A DNA stretch of 64,000 bases, taken from Methylophilaceae bacterium (lineage in GTDB: Bacteria > Pseudomonadota > Gammaproteobacteria > Burkholderiales > Methylophilaceae). Each line of letters begins with the position of its first letter. The first letter of the stretch is position 1. Below are positions 12,854-18,731 of this stretch, piece by piece. The stretch covers positions 62,001 through 126,000 of the forward strand of contig JADHPM010000001.1 in assembly GCA_016778465.1 (NCBI GenBank), written 5' to 3'. The notes under the pieces were generated by a model, which made no database searches, was not told where the DNA came from, and was given only the letters and a program-made list of their open reading frames with translations. The position numbers and the translations under genes were made by a program.

Positions 12854-13738
12854 ATGAATGTTATTTCAATTTTTGGTGGTTCAGGATTTATTGGGTCTCA
12901 ATTAATCTATGAGCTTGCCAAGAAGAAAGTGGAAATACGTCTTTTTACCAGAGATAAAAGATACGCAAACCATTTAAGAGTTTTTCCAACCCTCAAACTT
13001 ATTGAGTACCAAACGAATTCCAATTTATCAAAATTTCTAGAAGGAACAGATGTTTTGATTAATTGTATTGGTATTCTGCATGAGCGCCCAAATAATACTT
13101 TTGATAAGGTTCACGGTCTTTGGCTCAAAAAACTCTCGACCCTAGCAATTAAACTGAAGATTAAACGTTTCATTCATCTTAGCGCCCTTGGCGCTAGTAA
13201 AACTGCACCCAGTAAATATTTGAAATCAAAATTTAATGGTGAGAGCTATATAAAATCAATCTGTCAGAGCATAAATTGGACAATTTACAGACCCTCTATT
13301 GTTTTTGGTGAGGAAGATAGCTTTGTTAACTTATTTAAGAAAATGGTTATATGGCTGCCGATCCTTTTTGTTGTATCTCCAAAGTCAAAATTTCAACCAA
13401 TTGCAGTTAATGACCTAGTATCGATTATCAATGCAAGTATTTCCGATAAAAAAACTTATAAAAAAACTTATAACCTTGGAGGCCCTAAAAGCTACACTTT
13501 TTTTGAGCTATTAAAAGTAATTACTGATTCTTTAAATAAAAAAAGGCTGTTTATTCCTTTGCCCAAAAAGCTTTCATATTTGATGGTCTGTTTCCTAGAA
13601 TTAAGTCCAATAAAATTAATTACTAGAGATAATTTAAAGTCAATGCAGTTAGATAATGTAACACCTGTAAATGATGCTTATCAATTTAAGAAGCGTCTTA
13701 TTCAGCTTGAAACTTATTTAGATAAAGTAAATGATTAA
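12854..13738 (+). CDS. complex I NDUFA9-like NAD(P)-binding SDR-family protein
   Basis: An atypical short-chain dehydrogenase/epimerase-like protein of 294 residues. The N terminus has the Rossmann motif FGGSGFIGSQL. The segment LINCIGIL, the FIHLSALGAS strand and a later SKFNGESYI (a degenerate YxxxK region, with Phe where the catalytic Tyr is expected) resemble the family often labelled NDUFA9-like or NAD(P)H-binding. The substrate is unknown. It overlaps the CCA-adding enzyme gene by eight bases, suggesting shared transcription with lpxC and cca. Confidence 0.75.
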   Translation: MNVISIFGGSGFIGSQLIYELAKKKVEIRLFTRDKRYANHLRVFPTLKLIEYQTNSNLSKFLEGTDVLINCIGILHERPNNTFDKVHGLWLKKLSTLAIKLKIKRFIHLSALGASKTAPSKYLKSKFNGESYIKSICQSINWTIYRPSIVFGEEDSFVNLFKKMVIWLPILFVVSPKSKFQPIAVNDLVSIINASISDKKTYKKTYNLGGPKSYTFFELLKVITDSLNKKRLFIPLPKKLSYLMVCFLELSPIKLITRDNLKSMQLDNVTPVNDAYQFKKRLIQLETYLDKVND

Positions 13739-14855
13739 AAAATACCTTGTAGGCGGGGCAGTTAGAGATCAGATTATGGGTATTCCAACTAGCGACTTTG
13801 ATTATGTGGTGGTCGGTTCTACGCCTGATGAAATGATTAAACTAGGATACAAACCTATTGGAAAAGATTTTCCTGTTTTCTTGCACCCCGAAACCCATGA
13901 AGAGTATGCGCTAGCTCGAACAGAAAAAAAAATTTCAAAAGGTTACCATGGCTTTGAATTTTATGCATCGCCAGATATCACTCTTGAGGAGGATTTAGGA
14001 AGGCGAGATATTACCATTAATGCTATTGCCCAGGATGACTCCGGCCAATTTATTGATCCTTACTGTGGTATTGATGATATTAAGAATAAAATTATTCGTC
14101 ATGTTAGTGAGGCTTTTACTGAGGACCCACTTCGTGTTATAAGGGTAGCAAGATTTAAAGCTAAATTTCCAGATTTTATTATTCACCAAAGTACATTTCC
14201 CCTTCTAGAAAAGATTGTAATGAATAATGAAATTCAAACATTATCTGCTGAGCGCATTGTTGAAGAAATAAGAAAGGCCTTACCAAATTCTAATATCATT
14301 ACGATGTTAGAGGTTTTGGAGGAATGTAGAGCCCTGAATTTGATTTTTCCCAATTCTAACTTTGTAGAGATTAGACAAGACGCATCCGAGTTTTTTGGTA
14401 GTCCAAAATTATCTGAATTACATTTAGATGACCAGGTTATTTTGCTGCTGCTGATTTTATACTCTTTCAAGCAAGGGATTTCAAAGGAAGCTGGTGTTTG
14501 TGCAAAAAAATTAAAATTATCCTCACGAAATAAAAATCTTATTAATCTTATTTCGCAACATTTTTTAACACTAAGCGAAATTGAAAGCGCAGGTCAAAAG
14601 GAACAGTTTGATTTTGTAAGTTGTGTTGATTTTTTTAGGCGACCAAACGTTCTATATTCTTGCCTTTTAATCACACAACATATTTTAGATTTAAAAAAAC
14701 AAAAACATACTTTAGGTGGATTTGTTTCTAAAATAAAAGCCTTTGAACAAACTTTGGCTGAATCTAAACTTGAGGTTAATCTTGATCTGAAAGGCAAAGA
14801 GTTAGGCAGTGATATTAAGTCAAAAAGATTTAAAATTTTTCAACAAACTAACTAA
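13731..14855 (+). CDS. cca: CCA tRNA nucleotidyltransferase
   Basis: This enzyme builds or repairs the 3' CCA end of tRNAs. The 374-residue protein has the N-terminal nucleotidyltransferase signature LVGGAVRD, the catalytic DFDYVVVG carboxylates and the RRDITINAIA motif of class II enzymes. The DPLRVIRVARFKAKF segment follows. The shorter length suggests the C-terminal HD phosphohydrolase domain of the E. coli enzyme is missing or reduced. The 3' end overlaps the convergent HAD gene by eight bases. Confidence 0.93.
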   Translation: MIKKYLVGGAVRDQIMGIPTSDFDYVVVGSTPDEMIKLGYKPIGKDFPVFLHPETHEEYALARTEKKISKGYHGFEFYASPDITLEEDLGRRDITINAIAQDDSGQFIDPYCGIDDIKNKIIRHVSEAFTEDPLRVIRVARFKAKFPDFIIHQSTFPLLEKIVMNNEIQTLSAERIVEEIRKALPNSNIITMLEVLEECRALNLIFPNSNFVEIRQDASEFFGSPKLSELHLDDQVILLLLILYSFKQGISKEAGVCAKKLKLSSRNKNLINLISQHFLTLSEIESAGQKEQFDFVSCVDFFRRPNVLYSCLLITQHILDLKKQKHTLGGFVSKIKAFEQTLAESKLEVNLDLKGKELGSDIKSKRFKIFQQTN

Positions 14856-15474
14856 TTCTCATTTGCCTTAATTGATTGAGATTAGAAATCTTATAATTAA
14901 TAAAGTTTGGTTTGTATTTTTCTTTGGTCAACCAAATTGTGATTAGGCCCATTTTTTTTGCCATCATTAAATTTTCTTTGACATCATCAATCATAATACC
15001 TCGGGTAAATTTATTGGTTTTAAATAATTTATGAAAGCTTTTTTGATTAGGTTTTCCATGAAAATTAGATTCTTCTATGCTATGAATTCGATTAAAAAAA
15101 TTATAGATTTTCATATGCTTTAAGATCTTTTTTGTGTAGATTTTTGGGGCATTGGTAAATATCAATTTCTTAGCACGAATTTTTTTAATAATGTGTCTGG
15201 TATTTTTTGGGAAAATTATATTTTCTTCGCTTAAGATTATATTGTGTGTGGTTTTGAGAAAATCCTGTGCATCAATTTTATGATGTTTGACAAGCCCTAC
15301 AAGTGTTGCGCCATATGAATCCCAGTAAAACTGCCTTAATATTGCCGAGTTCTGTTTGTTAATTCCGAGTTTAGTTTGGATATAGCTATCCATTTTATAA
15401 TTAATTTGCGGGAAGATTTTATGATCTGCAAAATGCAGGGTATTATCTAGATCAAAGATCCAGTAACGACCCAT
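14848..15474 (-). CDS. HAD-family pyrimidine 5'-nucleotidase-like hydrolase
   Basis: A 208-residue HAD phosphatase. Motif I is WIFDLDNTLHFAD at the N terminus, the motif II-like Thr is in IFTNAP near residue 110, and motif IV appears as MIDDVKENLMMAKKMG near 165-180. The sequence resembles the SDT1/pyrimidine 5'-nucleotidase group often found beside argB in betaproteobacteria, but the substrate is inferred. It starts at the base after the argB stop, so it is probably the last gene of an argA-argB-HAD unit. Its 3' end overlaps cca on the other strand. Confidence 0.85.
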   Translation of the reverse strand: MGRYWIFDLDNTLHFADHKIFPQINYKMDSYIQTKLGINKQNSAILRQFYWDSYGATLVGLVKHHKIDAQDFLKTTHNIILSEENIIFPKNTRHIIKKIRAKKLIFTNAPKIYTKKILKHMKIYNFFNRIHSIEESNFHGKPNQKSFHKLFKTNKFTRGIMIDDVKENLMMAKKMGLITIWLTKEKYKPNFINYKISNLNQLRQMRIS

Positions 15475-16359
<885 letters not shown>

Positions 16360-16376
16360 TTAAAAAAAACATTATT

Positions 16377-17915
16377 TTATATCTTTTTAGATAAGAATTT
16401 TGAGTTTCTCTCTTTCTGGTAGATTTTTTTTCGATGCCTAGGCATCAAATTCTTGTTCGCAACTTTAAAACCCTTTTCTATAAACCAGTGTTCTGATTGT
16501 GTAGTTAAAATGAAGAGATCATATATATTTTGACTCTTGGCTTCTTTTTCACAGAATTTAAGAAGTTTTGAGCCATACCCTTGGCTATGAAGGTTTTCAT
16601 CAACTGCAAAGCATGCTACTTCAATCATCTTTTCATAATGGTAAAGAGCAACGCAGCCAATTAAATCAAGTCCATGCTCCATAACATAAAAATTATTTAA
16701 CTCTTTTTCAATTTGACTAATTGTTCGTGAAACTAAAATACCATCCTGGCCTAAGGGCTCAATCAGTTGAAAAATTTTATTGGCGTCGCCCGCTCTTGCT
16801 TTTCTAATTTGCTCTAAAGGATATTCAGTTAAGACAGTACCCGTGCCCTTGTCCGTAAAGAGTTCTTCTATAATTGATCCATTAGTATGCCGATTAATTA
16901 AATGAACCTTTTCAATTCTATTTTTAATTGCAACCAAGCTACTCTTTAAGATATTAAAATCATTGTATGAGATAAATGGAGCTTTACTGGGCGTTGACTG
17001 GGACTCAATATGATGTATAAGATTCTCAGCTTTTTCAGTTGTTAGTTCCGTAATAAGCTCACCTTCTAAGTTGAGAATACCGTCAGAGTTTACATAGAAA
17101 ATTAACTTATGGGCTTTGATGGCTGATGCTACTGAAGAGGCGAGTTGTTCGTAAGATAAGTTAAATACATCGCCTACTGGAGTGAAACCTAAAGGCGAAA
17201 TTAATACTACCTCTCCGCTATTAAGACGAGCCTGAACGACCTCATGATCAACCTTTCTTACTTGCCCTGTAAATTGCATATCCACGCCATCTAAAACACC
17301 TAACGGCCTTGCTGTAATAAAATTTCCACTTGCAACTCGAATATCGCTTCCGAATAGCGGGGAATTGATAAGGCTTGATGAGAGCACAGACTCGATCTTT
17401 GTTCGAATTCTACCACTTACATCTATCACATGACCCATTGTTATTTCATCCGTGACACGAATATTTCTTACCAAGTTTGTCCTGACTTTGCTTGCTAGCA
17501 ATAAATCATCAATCTGTGGGCGAATACCATGAATAAGAATAATTCGAATGCCAAGAGAGCGGAGTAAATTTATATCATAGGCAATAGACTCAAATTGATT
17601 ATCCTGTAAAACATCACCACCAATGGCAATAACAAAAACTTTATTGTTGAATGAGTTGATATATTTTGAAGCACGTCTAAATTGTTCAACAAAACTATTT
17701 GATGCATCATAATCAGGAGAGGTTAGGAGATCATGTGTTCGGCATTGAAGGGCATTGGCTAATTTTTCCAAAAGTCCCACGCTAATATTTAGCTCTCCTC
17801 GCTCAATTCGGGATAAATTACCTGAACTCATTGCAATTTTTTTGGCGAGCCCTTCAAGGCTCATATTATGCAATTTTCTTATACTTCTTATTTTTTTACC
17901 AATAATAATTTGCAT
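16377..17915 (-). CDS. argA: N-acetylglutamate synthase fused to an N-terminal XRE helix-turn-helix domain
   Basis: This 512-residue protein combines three domains. Residues 5-64 form a typical XRE/Cro helix-turn-helix (MSLEGLAKKIAMSSGNLSR, then a GLLEKLANAL helix). Residues about 74-345 match the amino-acid-kinase-like domain of classical ArgA (FVEQFRRASKYINSF, AIGGDVL, LIHGIRPQIDDL). Residues about 370-512 are a GNAT acetyltransferase with the acetyl-CoA motif HSQGYGSK at 443-450. Ordinary ArgA is about 440 residues and lacks the front domain, so the extra 70 residues are the fused HTH. The enzyme makes N-acetylglutamate from glutamate and acetyl-CoA, and the kinase-like domain normally binds arginine as feedback inhibitor. 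A role as arginine-responsive transcription regulator is inference. The single ATG at 17913-17915 opens directly into the HTH and the frame is unbroken. argB follows after 29 bases. Confidence 0.93.
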   Translation of the reverse strand: MQIIIGKKIRSIRKLHNMSLEGLAKKIAMSSGNLSRIERGELNISVGLLEKLANALQCRTHDLLTSPDYDASNSFVEQFRRASKYINSFNNKVFVIAIGGDVLQDNQFESIAYDINLLRSLGIRIILIHGIRPQIDDLLLASKVRTNLVRNIRVTDEITMGHVIDVSGRIRTKIESVLSSSLINSPLFGSDIRVASGNFITARPLGVLDGVDMQFTGQVRKVDHEVVQARLNSGEVVLISPLGFTPVGDVFNLSYEQLASSVASAIKAHKLIFYVNSDGILNLEGELITELTTEKAENLIHHIESQSTPSKAPFISYNDFNILKSSLVAIKNRIEKVHLINRHTNGSIIEELFTDKGTGTVLTEYPLEQIRKARAGDANKIFQLIEPLGQDGILVSRTISQIEKELNNFYVMEHGLDLIGCVALYHYEKMIEVACFAVDENLHSQGYGSKLLKFCEKEAKSQNIYDLFILTTQSEHWFIEKGFKVANKNLMPRHRKKIYQKERNSKFLSKKI

Positions 17916-17924
17916 ATAAAATAT

Positions 17925-17942
17925 AAATTATGTAAATTATGT
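17925..17942. repeat. tandem 9-bp direct repeat upstream of argA
   Basis: AAATTATGT occurs twice without a gap at 17925-17933 and 17934-17942, ten bases before the argA start as read on the minus strand. The position fits a promoter or operator, and the minus strand reads TACATAAT twice, resembling a -10 region. In such AT-rich DNA short repeats arise easily, so the operator role is a suggestion. Confidence 0.45.
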
Positions 17943-17959
17943 ATTATTTTAACAAAAAA

Positions 17960-17974
17960 TTGTATTTTATACAA
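17960..17974. promoter_or_regulatory. palindrome TTGTAT-TTT-ATACAA in the rsmE-argA interval
   Basis: Perfect 6-bp inverted arms with a 3-bp spacer overlap the last codons of rsmE, 45 bases upstream of the argA start. XRE proteins usually bind such short dyads as dimers, so this is the best-formed operator candidate for the HTH of the ArgA fusion. No T-tract follows on the minus strand, so it is less likely to be an rsmE terminator. Confidence 0.4.
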
Positions 17975-18707
17975 AATCACCATAAATAGATTGTAATATT
18001 GCAATGCTAGCAATAGGCGCCGTCTCTGTTCTTAAAATTCTTGGGCCTAGCATAACTGATTTAAAATCATGTGATTCTATGAAACTTACTTCATTTTCCG
18101 TAAATCCACCCTCAGGGCCAATAACAAGTTTAATCCCATCAGGCGCAGCATCTATTTTATTAGCCTTCAAGCTATTTTTAACATAAGGGTTAAGTAAGTA
18201 CCTTAGCTCGCCAACTTTCAGTGCCATAGAGGTAAAACAGGTCTCTAGCGATATTATATCGTTGACCTTTGGGATAATAGATCTACCTGATTGCTCACAT
18301 GCTGATAGGGCAATTTGTTGCCAGTGCTGATTTTTTTTATTTCTTTTATCGTCTGTTAATTTAATTAGGCTACGTTGAGTTAATATTGGCGTGATTGAAT
18401 GGACGCCTAACTCAATTGCCTTTTGGATTACCCAATCCATCTTCTCATTCGTTGACAAGGCTTGATAAAGTTGAATTTTTAAGGGTGACTCGCTTGAATT
18501 TTTATTTTTCTCAAGAACCTTTACTGAAACGTCATTTCTATCTATCGATTTTATTTGGACCTTATAGTCGTGACCGTCTCCATTAAACAAAATAGCTTTG
18601 TCATCTAATTTAGCGCGTAAAACTTGTACTAAATGACGTGCAGCAAAATCGTCTAATCTAACAATTTCATTTAACCTCAGGGTTGTAGAATGGTAAAATC
18701 TTCTCAT
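17967..18707 (-). CDS. rsmE: 16S rRNA (uracil(1498)-N(3))-methyltransferase
   Basis: RsmE is a SPOUT-class methyltransferase that modifies U1498 of 16S rRNA. From ATG 18707 it encodes 246 residues beginning MRRFYHS, the typical RsmE start; a TTG three codons upstream is less likely. Family motifs are the N-terminal barrel segment HLVQVLRAK, KMDWVIQKAIELGV, the knot motif LVIGPEGGFTENEV and the C-terminal LGPRILRTETAPI. It is divergent from the redoxin gene and lies 51 bases upstream of the argA fusion on the same strand. Confidence 0.95.
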   Translation of the reverse strand: MRRFYHSTTLRLNEIVRLDDFAARHLVQVLRAKLDDKAILFNGDGHDYKVQIKSIDRNDVSVKVLEKNKNSSESPLKIQLYQALSTNEKMDWVIQKAIELGVHSITPILTQRSLIKLTDDKRNKKNQHWQQIALSACEQSGRSIIPKVNDIISLETCFTSMALKVGELRYLLNPYVKNSLKANKIDAAPDGIKLVIGPEGGFTENEVSFIESHDFKSVMLGPRILRTETAPIASIAILQSIYGDFV

Positions 18708-18731
18708 TTGCAACAAGTAGGAGATGAAAGA

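Follow-up and report, generated by a model that had tools for sequence, protein, structure and literature searches.

The argA fusion gene and its product

The window, a stretch of 64,000 nucleotides from a bacterium of the Methylophilaceae, a family that feeds on methanol, carries on its reverse strand an argA gene whose 512-codon frame runs without interruption from an ATG through an XRE (HTH_3) helix-turn-helix (HTH) domain into a complete classical ArgA, the N-acetylglutamate synthase (NAGS) that opens the arginine pathway. The genes of the locus and the parts of the fusion are the following.

17967 to 18716, reverse strand: rsmE, 16S rRNA methyltransferase, upstream neighbour of argA (NF008692, 285 bits)
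16377 to 17915, reverse strand: argA fusion gene, XRE HTH plus N-acetylglutamate synthase, 512 amino acids (open frame, Pfam and NCBIfam domains)
17724 to 17903, reverse strand: XRE/Cro-CI type HTH domain, residues 5-64, recognition-helix segment at about residues 30-40 (HTH_3, E 1.2e-10)
17694 to 17723, reverse strand: variable linker, residues 65-74 (mean pairwise identity 0.23 over residues 66-73)
16824 to 17693, reverse strand: kinase-like (AAK) domain with N-terminal helix, residues 75-364 (AA_kinase)
16380 to 16823, reverse strand: GNAT catalytic domain, residues 365-512, with R397, E432, R503 and S505 (Acetyltransf models)
15475 to 16347, reverse strand: argB, acetylglutamate kinase, 29 bp 3' of argA (TIGR00761, 248 bits)
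14848 to 15474, reverse strand: pyrimidine 5'-nucleotidase (HAD), adjoining argB (TIGR01993, 146 bits)

The Pfam scan placed HTH_3 at residues 9-61 (E 1.2e-10, above cut-off), AA_kinase at 92-303 and GNAT models at about 401-484 of the fusion protein, and found no Arg_repressor domain in it. Model TIGR01890 (N-Ac-Glu-synth) covered residues 75-511 with 453 bits against a cut-off of 203, and NF003641 gave 512 bits against a cut-off of 344. With this frame and these domains, the straight read-through from an XRE HTH into a full ArgA, which an earlier sequence-only reading of this DNA had described, is borne out. Judging from the spacing, the pyrimidine 5'-nucleotidase is probably encoded on the argA-argB transcript. 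For the CCA-adding enzyme at 13731-14855 the best model covers residues 3-209 only, under its curated cut-off; the C-terminal half of this enzyme is divergent or shortened.

The same in-frame fusion is present in 156 of the 157 Methylophilaceae loci counted, and the frameshift or assembly joint at codons 65-75 that the sequence-only reading had considered is therefore not seen. This count leaves out six rows, namely the duplicates L051, L065 and L316, the 10-base row L315 and the broken loci L046 and L062; the loci come from most genomes of the family sample, leaving out, for example, G099, G146 and G133. In the one exception, L312, and in the two broken loci, the enzyme is also immediately preceded by HTH-coding DNA, a frame break or a run of N lying between the two. 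The recurrence in frame, together with the purifying selection on the HTH described below, argues for a real fusion and not an assembly joint. A separate start giving standalone ArgA, also raised earlier, has no plausible candidate in the linker of 104 of the 139 parsable loci (17 further loci could not be parsed), which contain neither an ATG nor an ATG or GTG with a Shine-Dalgarno-like sequence. An ATG is found in 18, an ATG or GTG after a Shine-Dalgarno-like sequence in 19, and both in 2.

Of the 159 genomes in the family sample, 155, representing 22 genera, match the fusion protein, and where the match begins near residue 70, the HTH is present with a longer linker in every fetched, readable locus. 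In a search of 61 relatives, the match begins at residue 3-5 in the six genomes of other Methylophilaceae genera and only at residue 54-75 in all 24 that belong to other families of the order. Among the matches listed for the order sample (399 genomes, 376 with a match) none outside the family starts before residue 41, and for the phylum sample (249 genomes, 73 with a match) none but the window's own starts before residue 54; both surveys rest on samples, and an ArgA fused to an unrelated HTH would stay invisible to them. Among the 8 relatives listed by a whole-collection scan, the closest named contigs are Methylophilaceae, with 81%, 58% and 57% identity. Since no match listed in these samples reaches the HTH outside the family, the fusion seems to have arisen once, in the ancestor of the Methylophilaceae. 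The strong match besides the fusion is argB-like in every listed genome of the 61 relatives and the family sample, and the window genome showed no second ArgA.

The active-site and arginine-site residues were mapped by hand, through an alignment to the N. gonorrhoeae NAGS (2r8v), onto the residues named in the available part of PMC4490483. The motif E-(L/I)-(F/M)-(T/S)-xx-G-x-G-T, given there as the NAGS arginine site, is found in the AAK domain (residues 75-364) as E351-LFTxxGxGT, in full E351-LFTDKGTGT, together with the key lysine K270. The arginine-binding kinase-like domain that had been assumed from known ArgA is in keeping with this, K270, E351, G357 and G359 being conserved in 47 of 47 family members. 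The glutamate/NAG-binding and catalytic residues R397, E432 and R503 are likewise present in 47/47 and S505 in 45/47; the position of the general-acid Ser is T471 in 47/47. In the CoA motif (R/Q)xxGx(G/A) the glycines are found in all 47, and the first position is H443 in the window protein and R or Q in 44/47. As judged by these alignments, the fusion is a classical ArgA with intact active-site and arginine-site residues.

Purifying selection acts on the fused HTH as it does on the enzyme: over 24 usable close pairs, dN/dS is 0.040 in the former and 0.031 in the latter. Among 143 loci, the recognition-helix segment GNLSRIERG (residues 30-40) has a mean pairwise identity of 0.83, compared with 0.56 in the whole HTH, 0.23 in linker residues 66-73, 0.69 in the kinase-like domain and 0.62 in the GNAT domain. 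Of the named HTH models, NF006015, BoxR, matches the window protein best, with 43 bits (runner-up 30). At 1e-5 this model matches 20 of 47 family members, in the HTH only and, among the matches listed, far under the whole-protein cut-off.

The palindrome at the argA promoter

Upstream of argA we found a 17-bp palindrome, TTTGYA-N5-TRCAAA, which lies in the window together with two weaker sites and a candidate promoter.

17959 to 17975, reverse strand: operator site 1, TTTGTATAAAATACAAT, over the candidate -35 box, overlapping the end of rsmE (16.9 bits)
17946 to 17974, reverse strand: candidate promoter, -35 TTGTAT (17969-17974), 17 bp, -10 TAAAAT (17946-17951) (alignment A2)
17929 to 17945, reverse strand: weak operator-like site, AATACATAATTTACATA, 30 bp from site 1 (8.5 bits)
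17909 to 17925, reverse strand: operator-like site over the start codon, TATATTTTATATGCAAA, 50 bp from site 1 (9.9 bits)

A conserved candidate operator is thereby found in the region 17900-17980, where the sequence-only reading had expected binding. Sites orthologous to the one over the start codon reach 16-20 bits in genus relatives (e.g. L003, L007, L012 and L014). The promoter assignment comes from alignment A2 of 43 double sites with a spacing of 30 bp: columns 2-7 can be read as a -35 box within the first palindrome and columns 25-30, 17 bp on, as a -10 box (T25, A26 and T30 at least 90% conserved), and the second palindrome comes after the -10 box. A generic promoter scan did not list the 17946-17974 pair and listed another weak pair at 17927-17955.

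Across the family, the palindrome reaches at least 8 bits in 153 of the 155 loci with at least 60 bp upstream, a count of loci that share ancestry and are non-independent. With the 17-bp profile TTTGYAWWWWWTRCAAA, 145 of these 155 loci have a site of at least 10 bits and 106 have two such sites. Enrichment is seen only at a spacer of 5: the pattern TG(C/T)(A/G)-N5-(C/T)(A/G)CA gave 67 matches in 42 of 62 argA upstreams, with about 3 expected, and this type of palindrome at the other spacers (0 to 11) gave 0-6 matches each. A first PWM test, with 61/61 loci positive, was circular and was replaced; because that profile had been scored on its own training loci, the loci were split by genus for cross-validation. 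Trained on two genera, the PWM recovered 103 of 116 loci of the other genera at 8 bits (Markov shuffles, mean 5.5, maximum 9), and trained on the other genera it recovered all 38 loci of the two (Markov shuffles, mean 3.1, maximum 8).

The site spacings (n=111) are 28-32 bp in 76 cases, 41-42 bp in 8, 50-52 bp in 20, 22 bp in 3 and 92 bp in 4, which fits 3, 4 and 5 helical turns with one class dominating. All 109 loci that have an RsmE motif upstream show an operator of at least 8 bits, as do 42 of the 44 in which no such motif was seen, and we therefore assign the operator to argA and not to rsmE. None of 20 stand-alone argA upstreams from other families reaches 8 bits; these outgroups are GC-richer (0.42-0.71), and operators drift with base composition, which bears on this comparison. 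Within the family, L277 and L282, of a Methylophilus-like clade, have no site of 8 bits, and the other loci of the clade are weak.

When a double-site (bipartite) model was run on 24 genomes, the argA promoter was the best match in 23, including 12 of the 13 genomes outside the training set, the window genome among them. There, the best genome-wide match is 17929-17975 (E 2.5e-4, with a model trained without the window's genus); in G001 the best match is not argA. The search scores 150 candidates per genome at most, so that other targets could be missed. Among 27 family genomes, an operator of at least 8 bits within 220 bp upstream was found for argC in 0, for argG in 1 and for argJ in 2, and these three matches of 81 are weak or single. 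This check covered argC, argG (also with 1.5 kb upstream) and argJ. The operator is nearly private to argA, with metW as a weak second candidate.

At the metW start, matched by the double-site model in many Methylotenera-like genomes, a site of at least 9 bits occurs at one fixed place, the first codons, in 11 of 18 family genomes outside two streamlined genera, and in 9 of these 18 the best site beats 95% of synonymous-codon shuffles. With one genome per genus (13 genera, themselves related) the Fisher p is 1.3e-6. Neither the 7 genomes of the window's genus, the window genome among them, nor 3 outgroups have this site. We regard metW as a possible second target and a lead only. The palindrome at this metX-metW junction is present in most larger-genome Methylophilaceae, with codons and residues partly different (loci L344-L352, L360, L362, L364, L369, L373-L375, L377, L378, L381, L384 and L385).

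A strict pattern, TTTGYANNNNNTRCAAA, was also tried on 27 genomes and matched in 25. It gave no regulon, because it misses most argA sites and its matches are mostly coding: the 20 regions opened lay mostly within coding sequence, spoT recurring in five genomes. The reversed pattern, used as a control, gave fewer matches, above zero. The spoT site is a perfect TTTGCATWWYATGCAAA-like palindrome about 500 bp inside the gene (L091-L094 and L096) and is probably a coding constraint.

Relation to known systems

Trigger enzymes such as PutA, NadR and BirA possess DNA-binding domains and both catalyse and regulate transcription related to their pathway. At the level of sequence, the fusion resembles them in that an intact enzyme and a DNA-binding domain share one chain; enzyme, pathway and HTH family are different, and the regulation by the fusion is predicted. 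With classical ArgA of the N. gonorrhoeae 2R8V type it has the AAK and GNAT domains, the arginine motif and the active-site residues in common, but it has an additional XRE HTH, about 65 residues long, and an operator of its own.

According to the available part of PMC3602430, BzdR/BoxR consist of an XRE HTH and a shikimate-kinase-like domain, and the synthetic chimera Q1, an HTH on a live enzyme, both catalysed and repressed. BzdR binds TGCA(N6)TGCA palindromes, as described in the accessible part of PMC6678401. As far as these texts go, the fusion is like BzdR/BoxR and Q1 in its order of N-terminal XRE HTH, linker and enzyme-fold domain, and like BzdR/BoxR, to which its top named HTH match belongs, in having TGCA palindromic operators at a promoter. 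In contrast to BzdR, whose catalysis is described as lost, its HTH is joined to a complete two-domain NAGS with conserved active-site residues; the shikimate-kinase-like C-terminal domain is absent, the C-terminal part being NAGS. The operator spacer is N5 and not N6 as reported for BzdR. Unlike BzdR/BoxR and Q1, the fusion is natural, family-wide and tied to its own gene.

Fusions of NAGS to other enzymes, argH(A) and NAGS/NAGK, are known (PMC1382215, PMC4490483, in the parts available). They too join NAGS activity to another domain, but in them two enzymes are joined, and the available parts mention no DNA-binding domain. A described XRE-NAGS case was not found in the open-access literature, subscription journals lying mostly outside the search, which agrees with the sequence-only reading. 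New is the family-wide operator palindrome at the argA promoter; an enzyme that is also its own regulator is of a known kind.

Binding protein, effect and signal

Because conserved sites suited to an XRE domain precede argA, the enzyme probably controls its own gene. We propose, with a probability of roughly 0.7, that the fusion is a bifunctional enzyme in which an active NAGS of the arginine-sensitive type is combined with a working XRE domain that would bind the palindromes and hold down argA, and argB with it. Dimers of the XRE domain would bind TTTGYA-N5-TRCAAA where it overlaps the -35 box and the point at which transcription or translation of argA starts; once bound, they would hold down transcription of argA and, in the window genome, of argB behind it. 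Operator sites that cover the -35 box and the start suggest repression. Because the distance between paired sites is about 3, 4 or 5 helical turns, the same face of the DNA could be occupied jointly by two HTH dimers, which may belong to one hexamer or to two. Arginine, bound at the conserved site of the kinase-like domain, would be the likeliest signal, since in NAGS structures that have been solved it binds close to the N-terminal helix, shifts this helix and widens the hexamer (available part of PMC4490483), and in the fusion the HTH directly precedes the helix. Arginine sensing through the conserved site is plausible. Of the earlier suggestion that the fusion could sense arginine and repress argAB, the control of argA, with argB, gains ground as a prediction; beyond it we infer binding of the HTH to these sites, a repressive effect and, as the signal, arginine and not glutamate, acetyl-CoA or the amount of protein alone.

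Residue 42 of the HTH covaries with operator position 5, Q occurring with TGCA and L with TGTA operators (half-sites: Q 135 C and 47 T, L 52 C and 256 T). This was the strongest raw association of 1123 tests (r about 0.7); after tree correction it is the eighth of 1123 (r 0.25), all 7 informative contrasts pointing the same way. The covariation, eighth after this correction and spotted post hoc, was dropped as proof of binding and is suggestive only as a pointer to the fused HTH. As a group, HTH columns associate slightly more with the operator than enzyme columns do (p 0.004, columns not independent).

A palindrome does not by itself identify its binding protein, and the operator could be real and bound by another transcription factor, the fused HTH acting elsewhere or being a relic. 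Larger family genomes hold up to 14 HTH_3 domains, and HTH_3 was the only class searched. We nevertheless find this distinctly unlikely. The HTH and the operator share the same taxonomic limits (153/155 in the family, 0/20 outside), and in four of nine genomes, the window's, G001, G019 and G066, the fusion is the sole HTH_3 domain at E<=1e-5. The obvious XRE competitors are thereby eliminated in these four genomes, an argument that does not extend to regulators of other classes or to other XRE-like Pfam models. The remaining five genomes have 3-14 HTH_3 domains each. It is these shared limits, and the sole HTH_3 domain combined with the BoxR match and the TGCA palindromes of BzdR, that make us favour the fused HTH as the binder; a relic, moreover, would not keep a dN/dS of 0.04 and its recognition helix. 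XRE-like domains can also work in oligomer or protein contacts. That this one serves such contacts and not DNA binding seems most improbable to us, as the recognition-helix residues are the most conserved of the HTH and an operator of matching symmetry accompanies it. The sequence-only reading had gone further and seen in the fusion a general arginine repressor standing in for ArgR across the arg genes. An ArgR (PF01316) is indeed lacking in the window genome, but equally in all 61 genomes searched, among them 24 from other families of the order with stand-alone ArgA, and its absence is therefore not specific to the fusion; with operators at argC, argG and argJ in only 3 of 81 cases, the idea of a replacement for ArgR is not supported, and such a general role is very unlikely.

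The main alternative for the mechanism is plain autorepression, in which the amount of enzyme sets expression and arginine acts on catalysis only. It needs only the HTH and the operator, coupling to a ligand resting on inference; furthermore, the linker varies in length within the family, and in the engineered Q1 catalysis blocked induction in vivo (available part of PMC3602430). Nevertheless, the HTH directly precedes the helix that arginine moves (available part of PMC4490483) and the arginine site is invariant across family members, so that we consider ligand-free control rather unlikely and prefer an arginine-responsive bifunctional enzyme.

One may speculate further, with more doubt than belief, that the ancestor of the family gained an XRE domain and that the fully active enzyme has since been its own arginine-responsive repressor, a natural and stable "Q1 stage" in which the helices of the hexamer would signal to HTH dimers on phased operators, at metW too in most larger-genome genera. 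If true, control of metW in these genera may link arginine and methionine synthesis. Regulators are thought to arise from enzymes that gain DNA-binding domains, and the dual intermediate has been built in the laboratory (available part of PMC3602430). Natural examples of such an intermediate, at once enzyme and regulator, are rarely caught; here one appears fixed across the Methylophilaceae, and the fusion persists even in streamlined genomes of 1.2-1.4 Mb, with a readable operator. It offers a concrete model of how a single protein can unite gene control with allosteric feedback, and for this group, in which no ArgR was found, it is a first candidate for the control of arginine genes. In the Methylophilus-like clade (L273-L286) the operator is weak or lost and the HTH is kept, with SNLSRIERGEIG where others have GNLSRIERGELG; this clade is a natural test case for relaxed or changed specificity.
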